Source: Astrocystis sublimbata (taxonomy: Eukaryota > Ascomycota > Sordariomycetes > Xylariales > Xylariaceae). Taken from it: a stretch of 64,000 nt of DNA. The notes under the pieces are model-generated. The model searched no databases. It was not told the origin of the DNA and was given only the letters and a program-made list of their open reading frames with translations. Shown piece by piece: positions 18,161-53,025 of the stretch. Position numbers and translations under genes: made by a program. Within the stretch, counting starts at the first letter, position 1. The number at the start of each line of letters is the position of its first letter. The DNA lies in assembly GCA_022453515.1 (NCBI GenBank), contig JAJNNY010000027.1:372001-436000 (forward strand), written 5' to 3'.

Positions 18161-21100
18161 CTATGCCTTTGCGATGTTCACGAAGACAAAGGTAGGGTTG
18201 CCTGGAGTCGCATTCTTGCCCTCTGTCTCATCCTCCGTCATGGTTACTTCAACGTCTTCGAGTTTGGGAATAGTCTGCTTCAAGCTCGGAATAATCTCCC
18301 TCAACGTCTCGGCCTCGTCGAAGGGTAGGCGGCTCGAGAAGACGTCGCCCGGCTTCTCACCGGAATCAAGGCGTTTCTTTAAGGCCTGAACAAAGGGCAT
18401 CGCCTTCTTCATATCCTTCTTGTCGATCTGTTTCGTCAGATCCTTCACGTCAATAGCACCGGTGCTCTCGTGCTGTTTGGCCATGAGATTGATGCAGTTC
18501 TCCTGCCAGGCTGGGAAGGATGCGGCGACGGAGATGGTCAGCCGTTTTGGCTCCTTCGGATCGTAGCTGAGTGTTTTGCCTTTCGCAAGCTAAAACCGAG
18601 TTAGAAAGCTTTGGAAACGGATAGAATTCACATCAGAGATTTCACCTTCTTGATCTGGCTGCCCTCGGCAGAGGTGATGTTTCCAACAACGTTTCGCAGG
18701 TAGCTGAAAATCGACGATAGGATAGCATCAGGTGGCGATACCTCTGGGAACCTCGCGTTCTGAACAGAGTCTTTGTTGTGCAAGACTTCGCCCCATAAGT
18801 AAGCACTGAAATGGGGAGCTCTGCCATTCCATGTTAGGGGGTATTGTCACCGAATATGGAGAGGTAAACGCACATAGGGGTTAAGAGCAGAGCTTGCAAC
18901 TCGATGTATCTCAATACCAGGTCACGGTGCATGCTGATACCCACAGATCTGGCCACGTCGCGGTACCAATCTCGAGAAGCGATCTAGTCACGTTGTCAGT
19001 TGCTGCTGGGATTGCTGCTGAGGTTTTCTCGATTCACTCACAAAGTCGTAATATCCGCTTTTCAGGGCAAGCTTGAAGGATGTGTCTACGTAACACGATT
19101 TGGTCTGAGCAACCAAGATATTCATCTCGTTTGAGAACAGCTTGTCGAAGAGGCCCCATTCGCCGGTCCTCAACTCAGGGTCATTTGCGGTATCTTGACA
19201 CCATCGGCGCAACTCGAACAAGCGAAGAATGGTTGCATTAGCGACGGACTCTTCGAGGTTGGCATCTTCAATGCCATCACCACCATCTGCTAGAGAACTT
19301 TTCAAATTGCAAGTCAGCATAGACTTTCCTGGTATAATGCAAGTGGGAAGAAACAAGCGCGTCTTCGATATGGGCATTCATCTCAACTAAACAGGAAATT
19401 GACTGCATCAAACTCTTTTAAGTGAAGAGTCTGTCACTTACATTCGTGTAGCATCAGCGCCATATTTCTCAACGGCATCTCGTAGTGTCAAGAAGTTGCC
19501 TGTCGACTTGGACATCTTAACGGAGTTGAGAGTGAGATGGCCGTTAACGCGGATTCCACGTGGCCAGTATGGCTCGTCGAAAAGCGCAGTATGGTGGTAG
19601 AGGCAGAACATGAGGTGGTTGTTGATAAGGTCCTTTCCCGAGATTCTCACATCCAGGGGGTACCAATACGAGAATTCGCGCCTCATAGCGTCAAGGTCGG
19701 AGCGAGGTATGTCGCTGTCAACATCGTCCGCCCTTTTGAAAATATAGTTCCAGACCCCGTCGGCTGCCCGCTGGTCAGTAATTGCCTTTTACAGTAAAAG
19801 AATTGCTCATGAAACAGTGTTTTGCAGGTGTCTCGGGAGTAAAAATACCTGTTAGGGCAATTTATGCTCCCAAGACATGCTAGAAGGGGGAATGAATGAC
19901 TCCAGGAATTGCATACTCATCTGGGAGGGTTGGATCGGTTTGGAGGACAAGCCGGGCTTTGTCCCGTAAATCCTACGTTGCCGGGTCAGAGTTCGCTCCG
20001 GGTATAATACTCGAAAGGGGAAACAGGACTAATTACTTACTCAGAGGAGAGGAAATGAGCCACGGTGTAGAATGCCATATAGATTGTCGAGTCCTTAATA
20101 TGTAAGTAACTTGTTCTTGGACATAACGCTCTGATTGGTACTTACACTGAGAGATTCAACCAACTGGGATGCGTCCCATGGCAACTTCGTCCCCTAATAT
20201 AGCATTAGCTTACGTTTTTACCTTAGCAACGCTAGACCTTTCTTACCAATCCAAAGGACCGGGAACAAGCCCACTGTGCTAGCCTACGATATCGCTGTCA
20301 GTGGTGTTCAATGCCTTGTGGTCATGAAGAAACTGACCAGTTGAGTGCTTGTTTCATGGCATGTTTTCCCTCCGGGAAGAAGCAATTGGTTCGGTCTGTC
20401 TCAATGGCATTGATAGTATCTTCGTACCACTTCTGGTCGCCTCCGTTTTCACCAGAACCTAGGAAGCGTCAGCTAATGAGTTGATGTATCGGGTCAAACA
20501 AACTCACCATAGTTGAAATACCATTGGTCCAGGTAGGCCTGTTGAACATGATATTCATATTAGTCTGCTGCAATTAAAGAATGTAAGTAGCCGAACTTAC
20601 CGCAATGCATTCATCGCCAGATCGCTACACATGTTCTCATTAGTTCCCCGCTTGTAGATGATGTAGGCTGAGACGGGAGTACAGGGATATACTCACACTG
20701 ATAACGACTCCGTCTGGTTCACCATAGTTGAAAGCCAAGCCGGAATCTATCAATTGTTTCTTGACTAAAGGTTTTGCCTCTTGAACAGACTTTCCCTTGA
20801 ATTCGCCGTACAGCATGACACCAGAATAGAAGCCTTCCTTGTAGGCAGTTTCCTTCGCCTCTGCTAATTTCTGATCCTTTGGGCCGTTGATCTTCAAAGA
20901 CTCGTAAAGTGACTTGGCTATTCTAAGTCAAGAGTTAGCAGGAGAGGGGCTACGTAAAATGAAGATCAGAGTGACACGTACAGATTGGACGTGGGCGTTT
21001 CAATGATCGGCAGGATATCTTCTACTACCCATTCTTTTTGGATGCCATGGAACTCTGGCTTCTTGGCTAGATCCAGTGTGGTCGCATAATCGTCCGGGCT

Positions 21101-22939
21101 GTCGGAAGGAACACACGTTACCACTCCTGTCCCTTTGGAGGCCTTGACCGTTGCCATAGGCAGAATTCTGATGCCTTTTTCGTGAACTGATAGAGGGGCA
21201 TGGACCAGCGTCCCGACAACATCGGAGCCCTTGAGATCGACTACTGGGTAGTGCTCGCCCCAGGGGGTTACGCCCTGGAATGCCATCTGCAGTGTGTTAA
21301 TGTTGGATTCGGAGTTTTGCTATCGCGCAGGAAGATGCTGAGGGTTTCTCCATATGTGTCGCTGGATGATCCAAACTATGACCACTTACTGTAAGAAAGT
21401 TAGTTGGGACCACCACCATGATATCATTGCATGTCACTGGGACTAGATTTGCACGTACCATTCTTAGCAGAACGCTCGCTGCAAAAGAAGAATTCATCCT
21501 CTCCACCTTCTTTCGGCACTCGGAAAATCTTGTAGTCTATCGTCGGTCCCACGAAACAACAGGTTTGACCGTACATAGTCTCAGGGCGAAGTGTAGCCGG
21601 GATGAAGTATACAGACGCCGATGAGGGGATCTTTTCGCCGATAATCTCCTTCGCCTTCTCGCACCATTCGAGTGTCTTCAGTTTCAAGGCGACGTATTCC
21701 TGCACAGCAATTCCCTCTCCGCTGCTTCGGTCGTGGTCCAAGCATGCCTGACCATCCTTGGGCGAGTAGACAGTGAAACGTTTGCCGAACTTGATCTTTT
21801 TGAGATCTTTGAGAGTCCTCATCTGCCAACTGACGAAGGAGTTGTAGAAGGGGTTGGCATCGGTCGTGACGAAAGACCTACGCCAGTCGATACGGGCGCC
21901 GACGCTTCTCAGGTCTGCTTCGCAATGTTGGGGGAACACTTGCAGCCAGTAATAGGGGTCGGCAAACTTGTGTATATCCTCGACAGGGATGCCAAGAGAC
22001 AACATGATCTGCAGCTACGTCAGTCTTTTCCGACCCCAGAGATTCGTGGTTCCGAGATGACAAACCTCATACTGATATTTGGCGCCGCCCGACTTAGCGG
22101 CGACCTTGCTCTTGCTCCCACTGAATTTGGTCATGTCTGTCTTGGTAGCGCCAGGGTTGTCGGCCACTGTAAGTTGCTCGATCTCGGCGGTGGGGACGTT
22201 CTCGAAGTTCTGGCTAAACAGTTCGATCTCGCGCTTCAGCTTGTCGGCGGCGGCTTTGATGGGCATTCCCGTGCAATGGTATCCTTGTGGAAAGAGAGCT
22301 TTCTGTCCCATCATCCTAGCGAAGCCCGTCATGAACTCGACTCTGCAGGAGAGCGCGAGGCGAAGTCAGTAAATCGATCACATGTTCGCGCCTTCTGTGA
22401 GGAGAGATAAGGTATACGTACTTGGACCAGGTGAATGCATGGCCGGCACTGGAGAGGTCGCGTTAGATCTGGCGTTGTTGCCGAATTTTTGCTGAATGGG
22501 GGGGAATGAAAGAGTCAAATAGACTAACTGCAATGTCCCTGCGATAAATTAGATTCAATCGTTCGTTAGGACACTTCCCTAAGGAGACTTACCGTTCATG
22601 TACTGTTACAATATGGCGACGTTAGCCAGATTCACGATGAAATGGCACAGCAGGTGCTTCCTCGTGTAGGGGGAGGTTGACGGACTGGATATGCCATGGT
22701 AGCAAAGAATTTGGGGGGCTTCGGTTCGCCATCGGCCGGGGCATCCTGCTGGAAGAGTTTGGCATCGTCCCACTCCTTCTGGTACCGCTTCTCGTCGGCG
22801 ATCAAGGTATCGCGCTTCTCGGTCTATCGAGCGGGCATGTCAATGTCAGTTGGTCGAGGGCGGCGCGGGGCAAGCGACGCACATTTTCCATCTTGGGAAC
22901 GACCTTGGTGGCCGCATCATGGTCAATGGGCGTCACCAT
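18161..22939 (-). CDS. CDC60: Cytosolic leucyl-tRNA synthetase, 21 exons
   Basis: Class Ia enzyme that charges cytosolic tRNA-Leu. The archaeal/eukaryotic-type HIGH-like motif reads PYMNGTLHAGH near residues 65-75, the editing domain contains TLRPETMYGQT and VTCVPSDSPDD, and KMSKS lies near residue 740. Exons on the minus strand: 22883-22939, 22686-22823, 22593-22602, 22529-22538, 22422-22448, 22066-22342, 21460-22008, 20982-21286, 20697-20922, 20601-20624, 20508-20538, 20338-20458, 20247-20283, 20146-20193, 20041-20093, 19917-19972, 19442-19763, 19042-19297, 18874-18983, 18646-18820, 18161-18589. Together they encode 1086 residues, a normal length. All joins close in frame only if the intron at 21287-21459 is spliced as a stwintron. 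The start at 22939 is the most upstream in-frame ATG after a stop; MENTEKRDTL at 22891 also fits the family start. No mitochondrial presequence is visible. Confidence 0.93.
21287..21459 (-). other. Stwintron [D1,2] in the LeuRS gene
   Basis: The exon ends AAG AAT (Lys-Asn), followed by G then GTACGT. Using GTACGT as a simple donor leaves one surplus base and shifts the frame before Met-Ala-Phe-Gln. If an inner intron (21389-21458, 70 nt, gtacgt donor, branch CTAAC, acceptor cttacag) is removed first, the stranded G joins TAAGTG to form a perfect outer donor GTAAGT. The outer intron is 103 nt and ends at ctgcag directly before ATGGCATTC. The total coding length becomes divisible by three. Confidence 0.88.
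22529..22538 (-). other. 10-nt microexon of the LeuRS gene (HIGH region, second)
   Basis: Exon GGACATTGCA follows a gcag acceptor and precedes a gttagt donor. It encodes Gly-Thr-Leu and two bases of the first His of HAGH. The catalytic HIGH-like signature is thus assembled from three exons. Confidence 0.85.
22593..22602 (-). other. 10-nt microexon of the LeuRS gene (HIGH region, first)
   Basis: Exon TACATGAACG lies between a cag acceptor and a gtaagt donor and encodes Tyr-Met-Asn plus the first base of Gly. It is required to complete the family motif PYMNG and to keep the frame. Confidence 0.85.
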
Positions 22940-23620: not shown

Positions 23621-23692
23621 TGCTGACGGCATGAATCGAACATGCGTTTGCTCGGCCACAACGAGCTGTACTAACCACTATACGACGCCAGC
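23621..23692 (-). tRNA. tRNA-His (GTG)
   Basis: A 72-nt cloverleaf with acceptor GCTGGCG/CGTCAGC (one G-T pair), anticodon stem GCTCG/CGAGC, loop TTGTGGC with anticodon GTG, and T loop TTCGATT. Only five bases separate its 3' end from the tRNA-Glu gene. No T run lies between them. Confidence 0.92.
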
Positions 23693-23707
23693 TTGGTAAA
23701 GGAAACA

Positions 23708-23778
23708 TGCATCAGCCGTGAATCGAACACGGGGCCCATCGATGGCAACGATGGATTTTACCACTAAACCACTGATGC
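23708..23778 (-). tRNA. tRNA-Gly (GCC)
   Basis: A 71-nt cloverleaf with acceptor GCATCAG/CTGATGC and discriminator A, D arm GGTTTAGTGGTAAAA, anticodon loop TTGCCAT with anticodon GCC, and T arm CCGTGTTCGATTCACGG. It lies 15 bases upstream of tRNA-His on the same strand. Confidence 0.93.
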
Positions 23779-47325: not shown

Positions 47326-49686
<2,361 letters not shown>

Positions 49687-50495: not shown

Positions 50496-53025
50496 TCAAT
50501 CGATCAACATGGTATCATCTCCATCAAGCGCCGGGCCTTCGGGCTCAGCAACTACACCTCTCCCGCGACCCGCCAACAACTCTCTCCTGATTTCCGGCCC
50601 AATCTTATGATGGCCGTGAGACAGTAGCAAATCGAGAAGGAGCTCACGCTAAGAAAAAAGGGTCAAAGTCAGTACTCGTTGTTTTCGAGAGAAGGCTGTC
50701 GAAGTGTAGATAACGTACCTGGTCCTCTGTAATCTCGTTCTTGTACCGTATAGCAAATGACAACACTACACCACATATGAGCTCATGCTTAACATCAGAG
50801 GGAGCCATGATCACGCACAGGTTTGGTGCCATATTACTGGCAACTTCGCCTGTGTAGCGGCGCGTTCGCTCGTATTCATCGCATCAGTCATAGTTGCCGA
50901 TGCCGGGTCGGTTGTGCGAAATCGCAGGAAATGGAAGACCAAAGAGTCCACTACCTGCCACCTGTTTGTTGTATGACTGTTAGTCAAAGGTTACTGCAAG
51001 AGATAGAGATGCATACGTACGGCAATGCATAACGCTTATCTAGAAGGGTTTTGATGAAGACATTGGTGGCACCGCCTCCTTCTGTTCCGGCTGACGCCTC
51101 ACGCGCAGCAATCTACAAGGTACTGGTCAACTCCTCTCCTCTCAATGATGAGAATCCTCACTTACATCGCACAAGCCTTTCAAAGCTGCACCACTGTGTA
51201 ACACTGTCACAAATTTGCGTCAATTAAGATGCTCAATTTTCGCTTATTATTCCACAGTGACTTGTCTGGGTCTCACCTGGTATAGACACTCGACTTCAAT
51301 TGATCGGCAAAGTCAGCATATGTTCGTTAGAGTGTTCAAAAGGGTTTGATGCAAGTAACTTACCTTAAAACAGCGCTTATTATATGGGCCTCCCTTAATG
51401 TGGCACCACTTTCCACGAGACTGCAATTGCAAATAGTTAGTCGCTTGCATATTGAGTATAATACATCGGTGGGCGCCATGCTGAGCAGCCGGAGCAGGGA
51501 TATCTATATTACTTACGGGAAGAGAATCCCTTTGAAGAATGAAGCGGGTTTATAGAGTGCCTTGCGTAGGGCGTCGAACAGATGAACGTTCAACTTCTTA
51601 GTCTGAAACGGGTGACACCTGTTAGTGAAGTCGATGTTGCCTGGGCCGAGAAACCTCACCTCTGCTATGTTGTCGCGCACATGCTCCAAAAGTATCATGT
51701 TTAAGAACTCCCTTACGACAGCAGGCGAAGAGGCTACAAACAATTTCGTAGCTGCTAAGACAGCATTGGGTGTCCAGCTGTCGGGTTTCGTCAATTGTAT
51801 AATGTCCTCCCACTAACAATGATTTGATTAGCTAGATGGCATGGAATACGATCAAATCAAGACTCCTTGGGGTGGAAGAGCAGACACCGAGAGAAAAAAA
51901 AAAAAAAAACCAAATGTAGGCGCAACTTTCACTGTCATGACCTGATCCAAAATACTATGAACTTACATTTGGCACTGTAGGTAAGATCTTGAATGCTTTA
52001 GGCAGTTTTCCCGACTTATATCGAGCCAAGAAAAGGCCCTGCGATGTTGTAACTTGTCAGTAATTGTCCCCCAACCGATGCTCTCTAGGACTGAGCGTCA
52101 CCTCGTTGTGCAGGAACTGCAAGGTCTAAACTTACTGCACGAGGGTTAGCTAAGGATACCCAACGTGGGCCAATGACACGAGCATTGAATAAGCGTGTGC
52201 GGTTCTGAACATACCAATTTTGGTGTAAACTTCGACTACCTTGGGTGATAACTGGAAGCCGTCGTCGGGCATTGCCCCTGGCTGGTCTTCCCCGGCTTCA
52301 TGGGCTGCGATGCGGGCCAACTACAAAAGCAAAAGGTCAGAATGTGTCTCCTCCCACAGCTGGCAGAGTAGATTGTTGAAGGTTTTGACGGGAAAGCGTA
52401 TGATGCGCATGGCGCAATAAATTCGGCAGAACACGGGATTGGCTATTCCTAGGTACGTACGATCTATGGACTGGGTTAGTCATCCAGAAAATCAAGATAA
52501 GTCAAAGCAGTTGTAGGGGACACTCACAAGATCCGCAAGATTTGTACCGGTGCCCTGCTCCTCAGTCCGGGGCTCTTGTGTTGTCGTCGGCCACGGTCCT
52601 TCGGTGAGTAAGGGGTCTTCGAATTCGGAAGGAAGAAACTGTTGGAAAGTCTGCAGGTCGTCCGGGTTGACATCGACGTTTTCGATTATCTCGTCGTCAT
52701 CGTCTGCCCAGATCTCGTCATCGTCATCGTACGATTCGCCCTGCGGTTCGTCTTCAAACCGCGACTCGAATCCGAAGGCGGTAGCAGAGGCAGCGGGTTC
52801 GGTACGGCGCGCGGGTGCGTCCTCCTCGGCCAGCTGGCGGCCGATGTCCAAGATCTTTCGACTAGCGCGGGCATCTACGAAGTTGTTTTCTCGCTCTTCG
52901 TCTTCGTCCTTCTGTGATCTGGACTTTGATTTGCCCGACTTGGTCTTCAGTATGCCTGACCCAACAAGGTACTCCTCCTCCAAACCGCGTCGGCGCCCCT
53001 GCGTCGGCGTGGTAGCTTTCGGCAT
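50496..53025 (-). CDS. ENP1: Bystin/Enp1, 40S ribosome biogenesis factor; 13 exons
   Basis: Nuclear protein required for 20S pre-rRNA processing and pre-40S export. Exons on the minus strand: 52528-53025, 52461-52463, 52216-52320, 51967-52038, 51660-51812, 51517-51602, 51364-51420, 51277-51293, 51203-51166, 51021-51112, 50819-50961, 50719-50765, 50496-50648. They encode 487 residues, close to yeast Enp1 (483). The acidic N-terminal third (SRKILDIGRQLAEED, DDDDEIWADDDDEI) precedes the conserved bystin core: LARYKSGKLPKAFKILPTVP, NWEDIIQLTKPDSWTPNAV, KKLNVHLFDALRKALYKP, FFKGILFPLVESGATLREAH, RYKNEITEDQ and a C-terminal GPEIRREL. One intron (52039-52215) is a stwintron, and a 3-nt exon supplies Ile of LADLILARI. 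ATG 53025 is preceded by no in-frame alternative. It is divergent from HGH1 and convergent with KRR1. Confidence 0.93.
52039..52215 (-). other. Stwintron [D1,2] in ENP1
   Basis: The exon ends AAA ATT (Lys-Ile), followed by G and GTATGT. The inner intron is 52135-52214 (80 nt, branch GCTAAC, acceptor gtgcag). Its removal joins G to TAAGTT as outer donor GTAAGT. The outer intron is 97 nt with branch ACTGAC and acceptor atcgcag before GGCCTTTTC. Only this path yields KIGLFLARYKSGK in frame. Confidence 0.9.
52461..52463 (-). other. Candidate 3-nt microexon of ENP1
   Basis: ATC stands between a CCATAG acceptor and a GTACGT donor, flanked by introns of 64 and 140 bp. Inclusion gives NLADLILARI, which fits the family pattern LADxI[L/M]. 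Skipping would keep frame but drop the Ile. The case rests on conserved spacing recalled from memory. Confidence 0.6.

Follow-up and report, generated by a model that had tools for sequence, protein, structure and literature searches.

A putative [D1,2] stwintron in the cytosolic leucyl-tRNA synthetase gene of Astrocystis sublimbata

The 173-nt intervening sequence at positions 21459–21287 (minus strand) of the stretch of Astrocystis sublimbata DNA analysed here is best read as a spliceosomal twin intron (stwintron) of the [D1,2] class, situated in the gene for cytosolic leucyl-tRNA synthetase (LeuRS). This stretch, the window, spans 64,000 nt (C110:372001–436000) of a 42.6 Mb genome in 189 contigs. 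In our hand-built exon model the LeuRS gene (18161–22939, minus strand) has 21 exons and 20 intervening sequences, of which 17 measure 49–83 nt and the remaining three 173, 153 and 144 nt. With all 173 nt removed, the spliced product is a protein of 1086 aa, identical over its full length to the NCBI protein named leucyl-tRNA synthetase from A. sublimbata (P0001). Among the matches listed, the nearest LeuRS proteins carry Xylaria, Nemania and Xylariaceae names, which fits the placement of A. sublimbata in the Xylariaceae, of which it is presumably a member.

The element, the longest of the 20, separates exon 7 (21460–22008, minus strand, 549 nt), ending in ...AKN in phase 0, from exon 8 (20982–21286, minus strand, 305 nt), which starts with MAFQGVTPWG in the editing domain. 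Across this joint the product aligns without gaps with 6lpf_A, 9w01_A and 6kie_A, the last being a solved cytoplasmic LeuRS that we take to be human. The element begins with GGTACGT and ends with CAG, and reads 5′-...AAG AAT, G GTACGT...ACTAAC TTTCTTA CAG / TAAGTG...ATTAAC ACACTG CAG, ATG GCA TTC-3′. Beginning one base past the exon, a 70-nt internal intron (21389–21458, minus strand) with a full donor (GTACGT), a branch motif (ACTAAC) and, 7 nt further on, an acceptor (CAG) splits the external donor as G/TAAGTG. The stranded G at 21459 would be the first base of that external donor. The remaining 102 nt (21287–21388, minus strand), starting with TAAGTG, have their own branch motif (ATTAAC), 6 nt from their own CAG acceptor. 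Excision of the 70 nt from GTACGT to CAG yields AAT followed by GTAAGTGG, which contains the complete donor GTAAGT, restored from G1 and T2 onwards, and leaves an external intron of 103 nt (the 102 nt plus the stranded G) with the signals GTAAGT...ATTAAC...CAG. As in a [D1,2] stwintron, full removal including the G gives a conserved, unbroken protein, and single canonical cuts fail. The RNA fold of the element is ordinary (z 0.95; 167 of 200 shuffles fold as well). An initial annotation of this DNA had proposed these boundaries, the surplus G and frame shift left by the GTACGT donor alone, the perfect outer donor built by removal of the inner 70 nt, the recovery of the coding frame and the two sets of branch and acceptor signals; all were borne out by the sequence and by translation of the splice products. 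Its [D1,2] reading accounts for the stranded G, the frame, both signal sets and the annotation damage in relatives described below.

We are highly confident that this is a [D1,2] stwintron which would be removed in two ordered reactions of the U2 spliceosome, giving the AAT/ATG joint with an effect that is most likely neutral. In the first step, the internal intron (GTACGT...ACAG, 70 nt) would be excised; the stranded G would then adjoin TAAGTG to form the external donor GTAAGT, and in the second step the 103-nt external intron would be excised and AAT joined to ATG, restoring A-K-N-M-A-F-Q, a conserved stretch in the editing domain. This order is the one suggested by the anatomy and by cases reported as verified in papers. 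The consequence would most likely be a neutral splicing burden, with occasional one-step missplicing that would leave one G and a frameshift.

That such a one-step distal splice (AATG/ATG) could instead be the main or a regulated product, lowering LeuRS output through the frameshift, is very unlikely. One-step missplicing of [D1,2] stwintrons is known from reads, according to the main text of PMC12403724, which nevertheless terms it occasional. In LeuRS, joining the visible GTACGT donor to the last acceptor indeed leaves one G and shifts the frame, and a vital gene cannot depend on such a product; retention of the external intron, or of the whole element, leads to a stop codon.

Less likely still is removal in one step, either as a non-canonical GG-AG intron or as some other single intron that trims or adds residues. 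A GG-AG cut would have the same protein outcome, but such introns are not a known U2 class, which counts against it. The AAT/ATG joint is bounded by GG and AG and no sliding is possible, so that a single GT-AG cut cannot produce it; for donors from −60 to +99 and acceptors up to +59, no single GT/GC-AG intron yields the conserved N-M joint, at which 6kie_A aligns without a gap. Ten single GT/GC-AG introns in the same range do keep the frame without a stop, yet all ten delete conserved residues (two also add 11), and P0001 shows none of their products.

We then turned to the annotated LeuRS proteins of relatives, aligning 36 proteins picked from the best 120 of 4373 matches. Relatives were defined as P0002–P0021, Xylariaceae by name or nearness, including one named Hypoxylon argillaceum. 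The joint N356/M357 was damaged in 10 of these 20 relatives, compared with 16 of 380 for the other 19 joints pooled and at most 2 of 20 for any other single joint (Fisher p 2.6e-8, counting related proteins as independent). One of the remaining 15 proteins, P0026 (named Xylaria arbuscula), was also damaged there and is counted with the relatives from here on, giving 11 of 21. Under the same thresholds, nine of those 15 were flagged at joint 1 and up to three at other joints, showing that the thresholds also catch plain divergence among distant proteins.

Damage at N356/M357 took three forms: inserted residues (P0002, P0004, P0010 and P0026), loss of the exon end (P0011, P0015 and P0014, the last of which carries a foreign stretch) and a frame that is shifted towards the end of the exon (P0006, P0013, P0016 and P0020). 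The last four matched the G-ending frame of the A. sublimbata exon better than the third frame (50 against 13, 33 against 18, 47 against 18 and 54 against 15, respectively), in agreement with retention of the stranded G. Scores in the true frame over the last 45 residues were 56, 54, 35 and 21; P0006 and P0013 score higher in the true frame (56 against 50, 54 against 33) because the early part of these 45 residues is unshifted. In P0006, P0013 and P0016 the last Met of the shifted frame leads directly into MAFQ, as AATG/ATG would read, and P0020 has 20 extra residues between that Met and MAFQ. P0004 and P0010 continue as N-G-M, as GGTATG would read, and in P0026 the joint is N-V-R-D, where the stranded G is not directly visible. 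We infer that annotation software, for which a GG start is not possible, used the distal donor and made up for the frame at another place. The occurrence of damage at this joint, with the G-ending frame, argues for a shared position, and from these protein-level traces in 11 of 21 records the position of the stwintron in LeuRS looks shared among the relatives.

In the other 10 of the 20, the N/M joint is clean: they may be correctly annotated, or may have an ordinary intron or none at that position. A clean row is no proof that a stwintron is lacking, given that the row of A. sublimbata itself is clean. The correctness of P0001 despite the stwintron suggests that its annotation had transcript or homology support. 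A 25-protein tree places A. sublimbata together with every one of the 11 damaged rows in a clade of 17 (support 82/83), nested in a clade of 18 (100/100) with Xylaria, Poronia, Nemania and Hypoxylon names. Damage is only loosely clustered on this tree, requiring 6 changes, a number that 26 of 500 shuffles equalled or undercut. We infer that the stwintron is an old one that these relatives have in common through inheritance within the Xylariaceae. P0016 and P0026, both named Xylaria arbuscula, lie in different sub-clades of one four-row group, and one of the two names may be wrong.

A second group of cytosolic-type LeuRS proteins from Xylariales and others (P0111 and P0121–P0133, with Biscogniauxia, Hypoxylon, Xylaria, Rosellinia and Nemania names) is 53–58% identical to the LeuRS of the window. 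Nemania abortiva has both kinds (P0009 and P0126), whereas in A. sublimbata there is apparently just one, since a search of its genome with P0126 returned the gene in the window and two weak matches elsewhere. Because the N/M joint is unbroken in 12 of 12 rows and the genome has only these matches, this group has no bearing on the question and was set aside.

The motif 'model A' of Fekete et al. 2022 (PMC9024468), re-coded for this analysis from the description there, gave four start/junction matches on both strands of the window, compared with a mean of 0.16 (sd 0.50, maximum 3) in 100 trials of second-order Markov sequence. An intron of similar length with fixed ends and random interior contained a model-A stwintron in 0.42% of 30,000 trials, and one with the AG/TAAGT junction in 0.01% of 30,000. 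Besides that in LeuRS, two of the four matches probably are [D1,2] stwintrons. The first, of 177 nt (52039–52215, minus strand; internal 80, external 97), lies in an ENP1/bystin gene at the joint KI/GLFLARY: its removal gives KI/GLFLARYKSG, contiguous with Enp1 in 6rxt, and retention of the G gives a stop. Its external branch-to-acceptor distance is 14, not 6. The second, of 117 nt (48982–49098, plus strand; internal 67, external 50), lies in a KRR1 gene at NI/HPIY: its removal gives NI/HPIYQIKEL, contiguous with Krr1 in 5jpq, and retention of the G shifts the frame. The queries used in both comparisons include further hand-placed splices. By the same frame logic as for LeuRS, we regard both as real.

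These results bear on a one-base assembly error near 21459, which the initial annotation had raised against its own reading. If one of the two Gs were false, the genome would have an ordinary intron of 172 nt, GTACGT...CAG, with canonical ends and the frame kept, but this is hardly credible, given that damage is concentrated at the joint (10 of 20 against 16 of 380), that in four relatives exon 7 is annotated in the frame requiring the extra G and two others read N-G-M, that a right internal junction arises in so few random interiors, and that two more such elements occur within the window.

The fourth model-A match (start 22593) was rejected as a mimic, in which the end of a 10-nt exon plus the next donor resembles a [D1,2] junction. 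The region (22592–22449, minus strand) comprises introns 3 and 4 of the LeuRS gene around a 10-nt micro-exon (22538–22529), skipping of which would shift the frame; this micro-exon encodes part of the GTLHAGH stretch, presumably the class I HIGH-like motif. Elsewhere in the gene, the 153-nt intron 16 (19916–19764, minus strand) contains CTAACAG/GTATTT, possibly a recursive splice site, or exon of zero length, between two introns, and the 144-nt intron 17 has an unusual AAAAG end. Genes for tRNA-His (gtg) and tRNA-Gly (gcc) are situated just upstream of the LeuRS gene (23621–23778, minus strand).

A census of the genome with four patterns on both strands gave 38, 24, 15 and 2 places, against 12, 21, 4 and 3 for the reversed-pattern controls; the total is 79 against 40, with one place counted twice and two of the four patterns showing little or no excess. 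The 70 places fetched comprised 68 distinct sequences. Of these, 28 lacked a full model A, and an open-frame filter, in which the script chose for KRR1 another end than the hand-checked one, left 31. A Pfam scan of the G-removed versions covered 20 of these 31 candidates (LeuRS, ENP1 and KRR1 were tested otherwise and eight were left out), and found a match crossing the joint in 10, six of them above the Pfam cut-off, and no match at all in the other 10; three of the crossing matches (GH7, WD40 and protoglobin) cross by only 3–7 residues. From the census excess of 39, 0.06 [D1,2] stwintrons would be expected in 64 kb, which holds three (21459, 48982 and 52215); this clustering is only suggestive, as one of the three was the reason for choosing the window.

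A DNA search of the A. sublimbata genome, skipping very common words, found no copy of the LeuRS element other than itself, and a propagating sister stwintron was rejected on these grounds. Separately, the genome contains at least 24 stretches of 84–120 nt similar in sequence (G000:C135:436492–436607 and 23 others), 82–91% identical to the query besides itself, which appear introner-like; several begin with GGTATGTATCAAAAC, which is similar to the opening of stwintron candidate L016. One 77-nt stwintron candidate recurs at three places in a short-chain dehydrogenase gene (L064, L073 and L072), with L064 and L073 identical over 1200 bases and L072 in opposite orientation, outside that comparison. 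Stwintrons in short-chain dehydrogenase genes also appear in the main text of PMC9024468, a comparison made at the level of the kind of gene.

As the initial annotation had it, the class is known: the main texts report more than 1500 [D1,2] stwintrons in the family Hypoxylaceae (PMC9024468), as well as 288 sister copies across 14 Xylariales (PMC12403724). Its suggestion that the host gene is notable found no support in view of the number known from Hypoxylaceae and of two more such elements in the window, in ribosome-assembly genes. In uniquely occurring, older [D1,2] stwintrons, the commonest branch-to-acceptor spacings are 7 (internal) and 6 (external), in 49 and 50 of 81, and the external spacing of sister stwintrons is typically 19 nt (main text of PMC9024468). 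The LeuRS element resembles the former in type, motif model, spacing of 7 and 6 and apparently shared gene position, although only the external spacing separates the two groups and the internal 7 does not; unlike them, it is found in another family of Xylariales. It shares type and order with the sister stwintrons, which include Xylariaceae. These, however, are described in PMC12403724 as sequence-similar copies, some with near-terminal inverted repeats, whereas the LeuRS element, starting with GGTACGTGCAAAT, matched only itself in the genome search, and its external spacing is 6 nt rather than around 19. It is also like the lipS [D1,2] and bioDA stwintrons (Flipphi et al. 2017, PMC5639578) in being apparently position-conserved in a conserved gene, those being in other genes and, as presented there, in a wider range of classes. 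Both PMC9024468 and PMC12403724 state that annotation programs fail to recognise stwintrons, which fits the damage in the LeuRS records of relatives.

Astrocystis is neither among the 14 Xylariales nor in the main text of PMC12403724, and LeuRS, bystin, ENP1 and KRR1 do not occur in the main text of PMC9024468, whose Table S1 could still list them. LeuRS and other aminoacyl-tRNA synthetases are absent from the main texts of these two papers and of PMC5639578, PMC6616335 and PMC8469720, from which the supplementary lists may differ, and we found no literature match joining twin introns with a tRNA synthetase. The LeuRS element thus appears, from its sequence, to be a further case of the established, uniquely occurring [D1,2] class, in a gene and a species new to these main texts.

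A speculative reading, to which we give little credence, holds that much of the Xylariaceae inherited the LeuRS stwintron from a common ancestor and retained it as a two-step splicing control point; if true, a failure at either step would yield mRNA with a stop or a frameshift, and the supply of LeuRS would track splicing capacity. On the [D1,2] reading, the known stwintrons are extended to a further species and to another gene that is both conserved and essential. When annotations from several relatives go wrong at the same joint, this may serve as an inexpensive test for old stwintrons. Of the 21 Xylariaceae-like LeuRS records in the comparison, 11 appear to be wrong in the editing domain.
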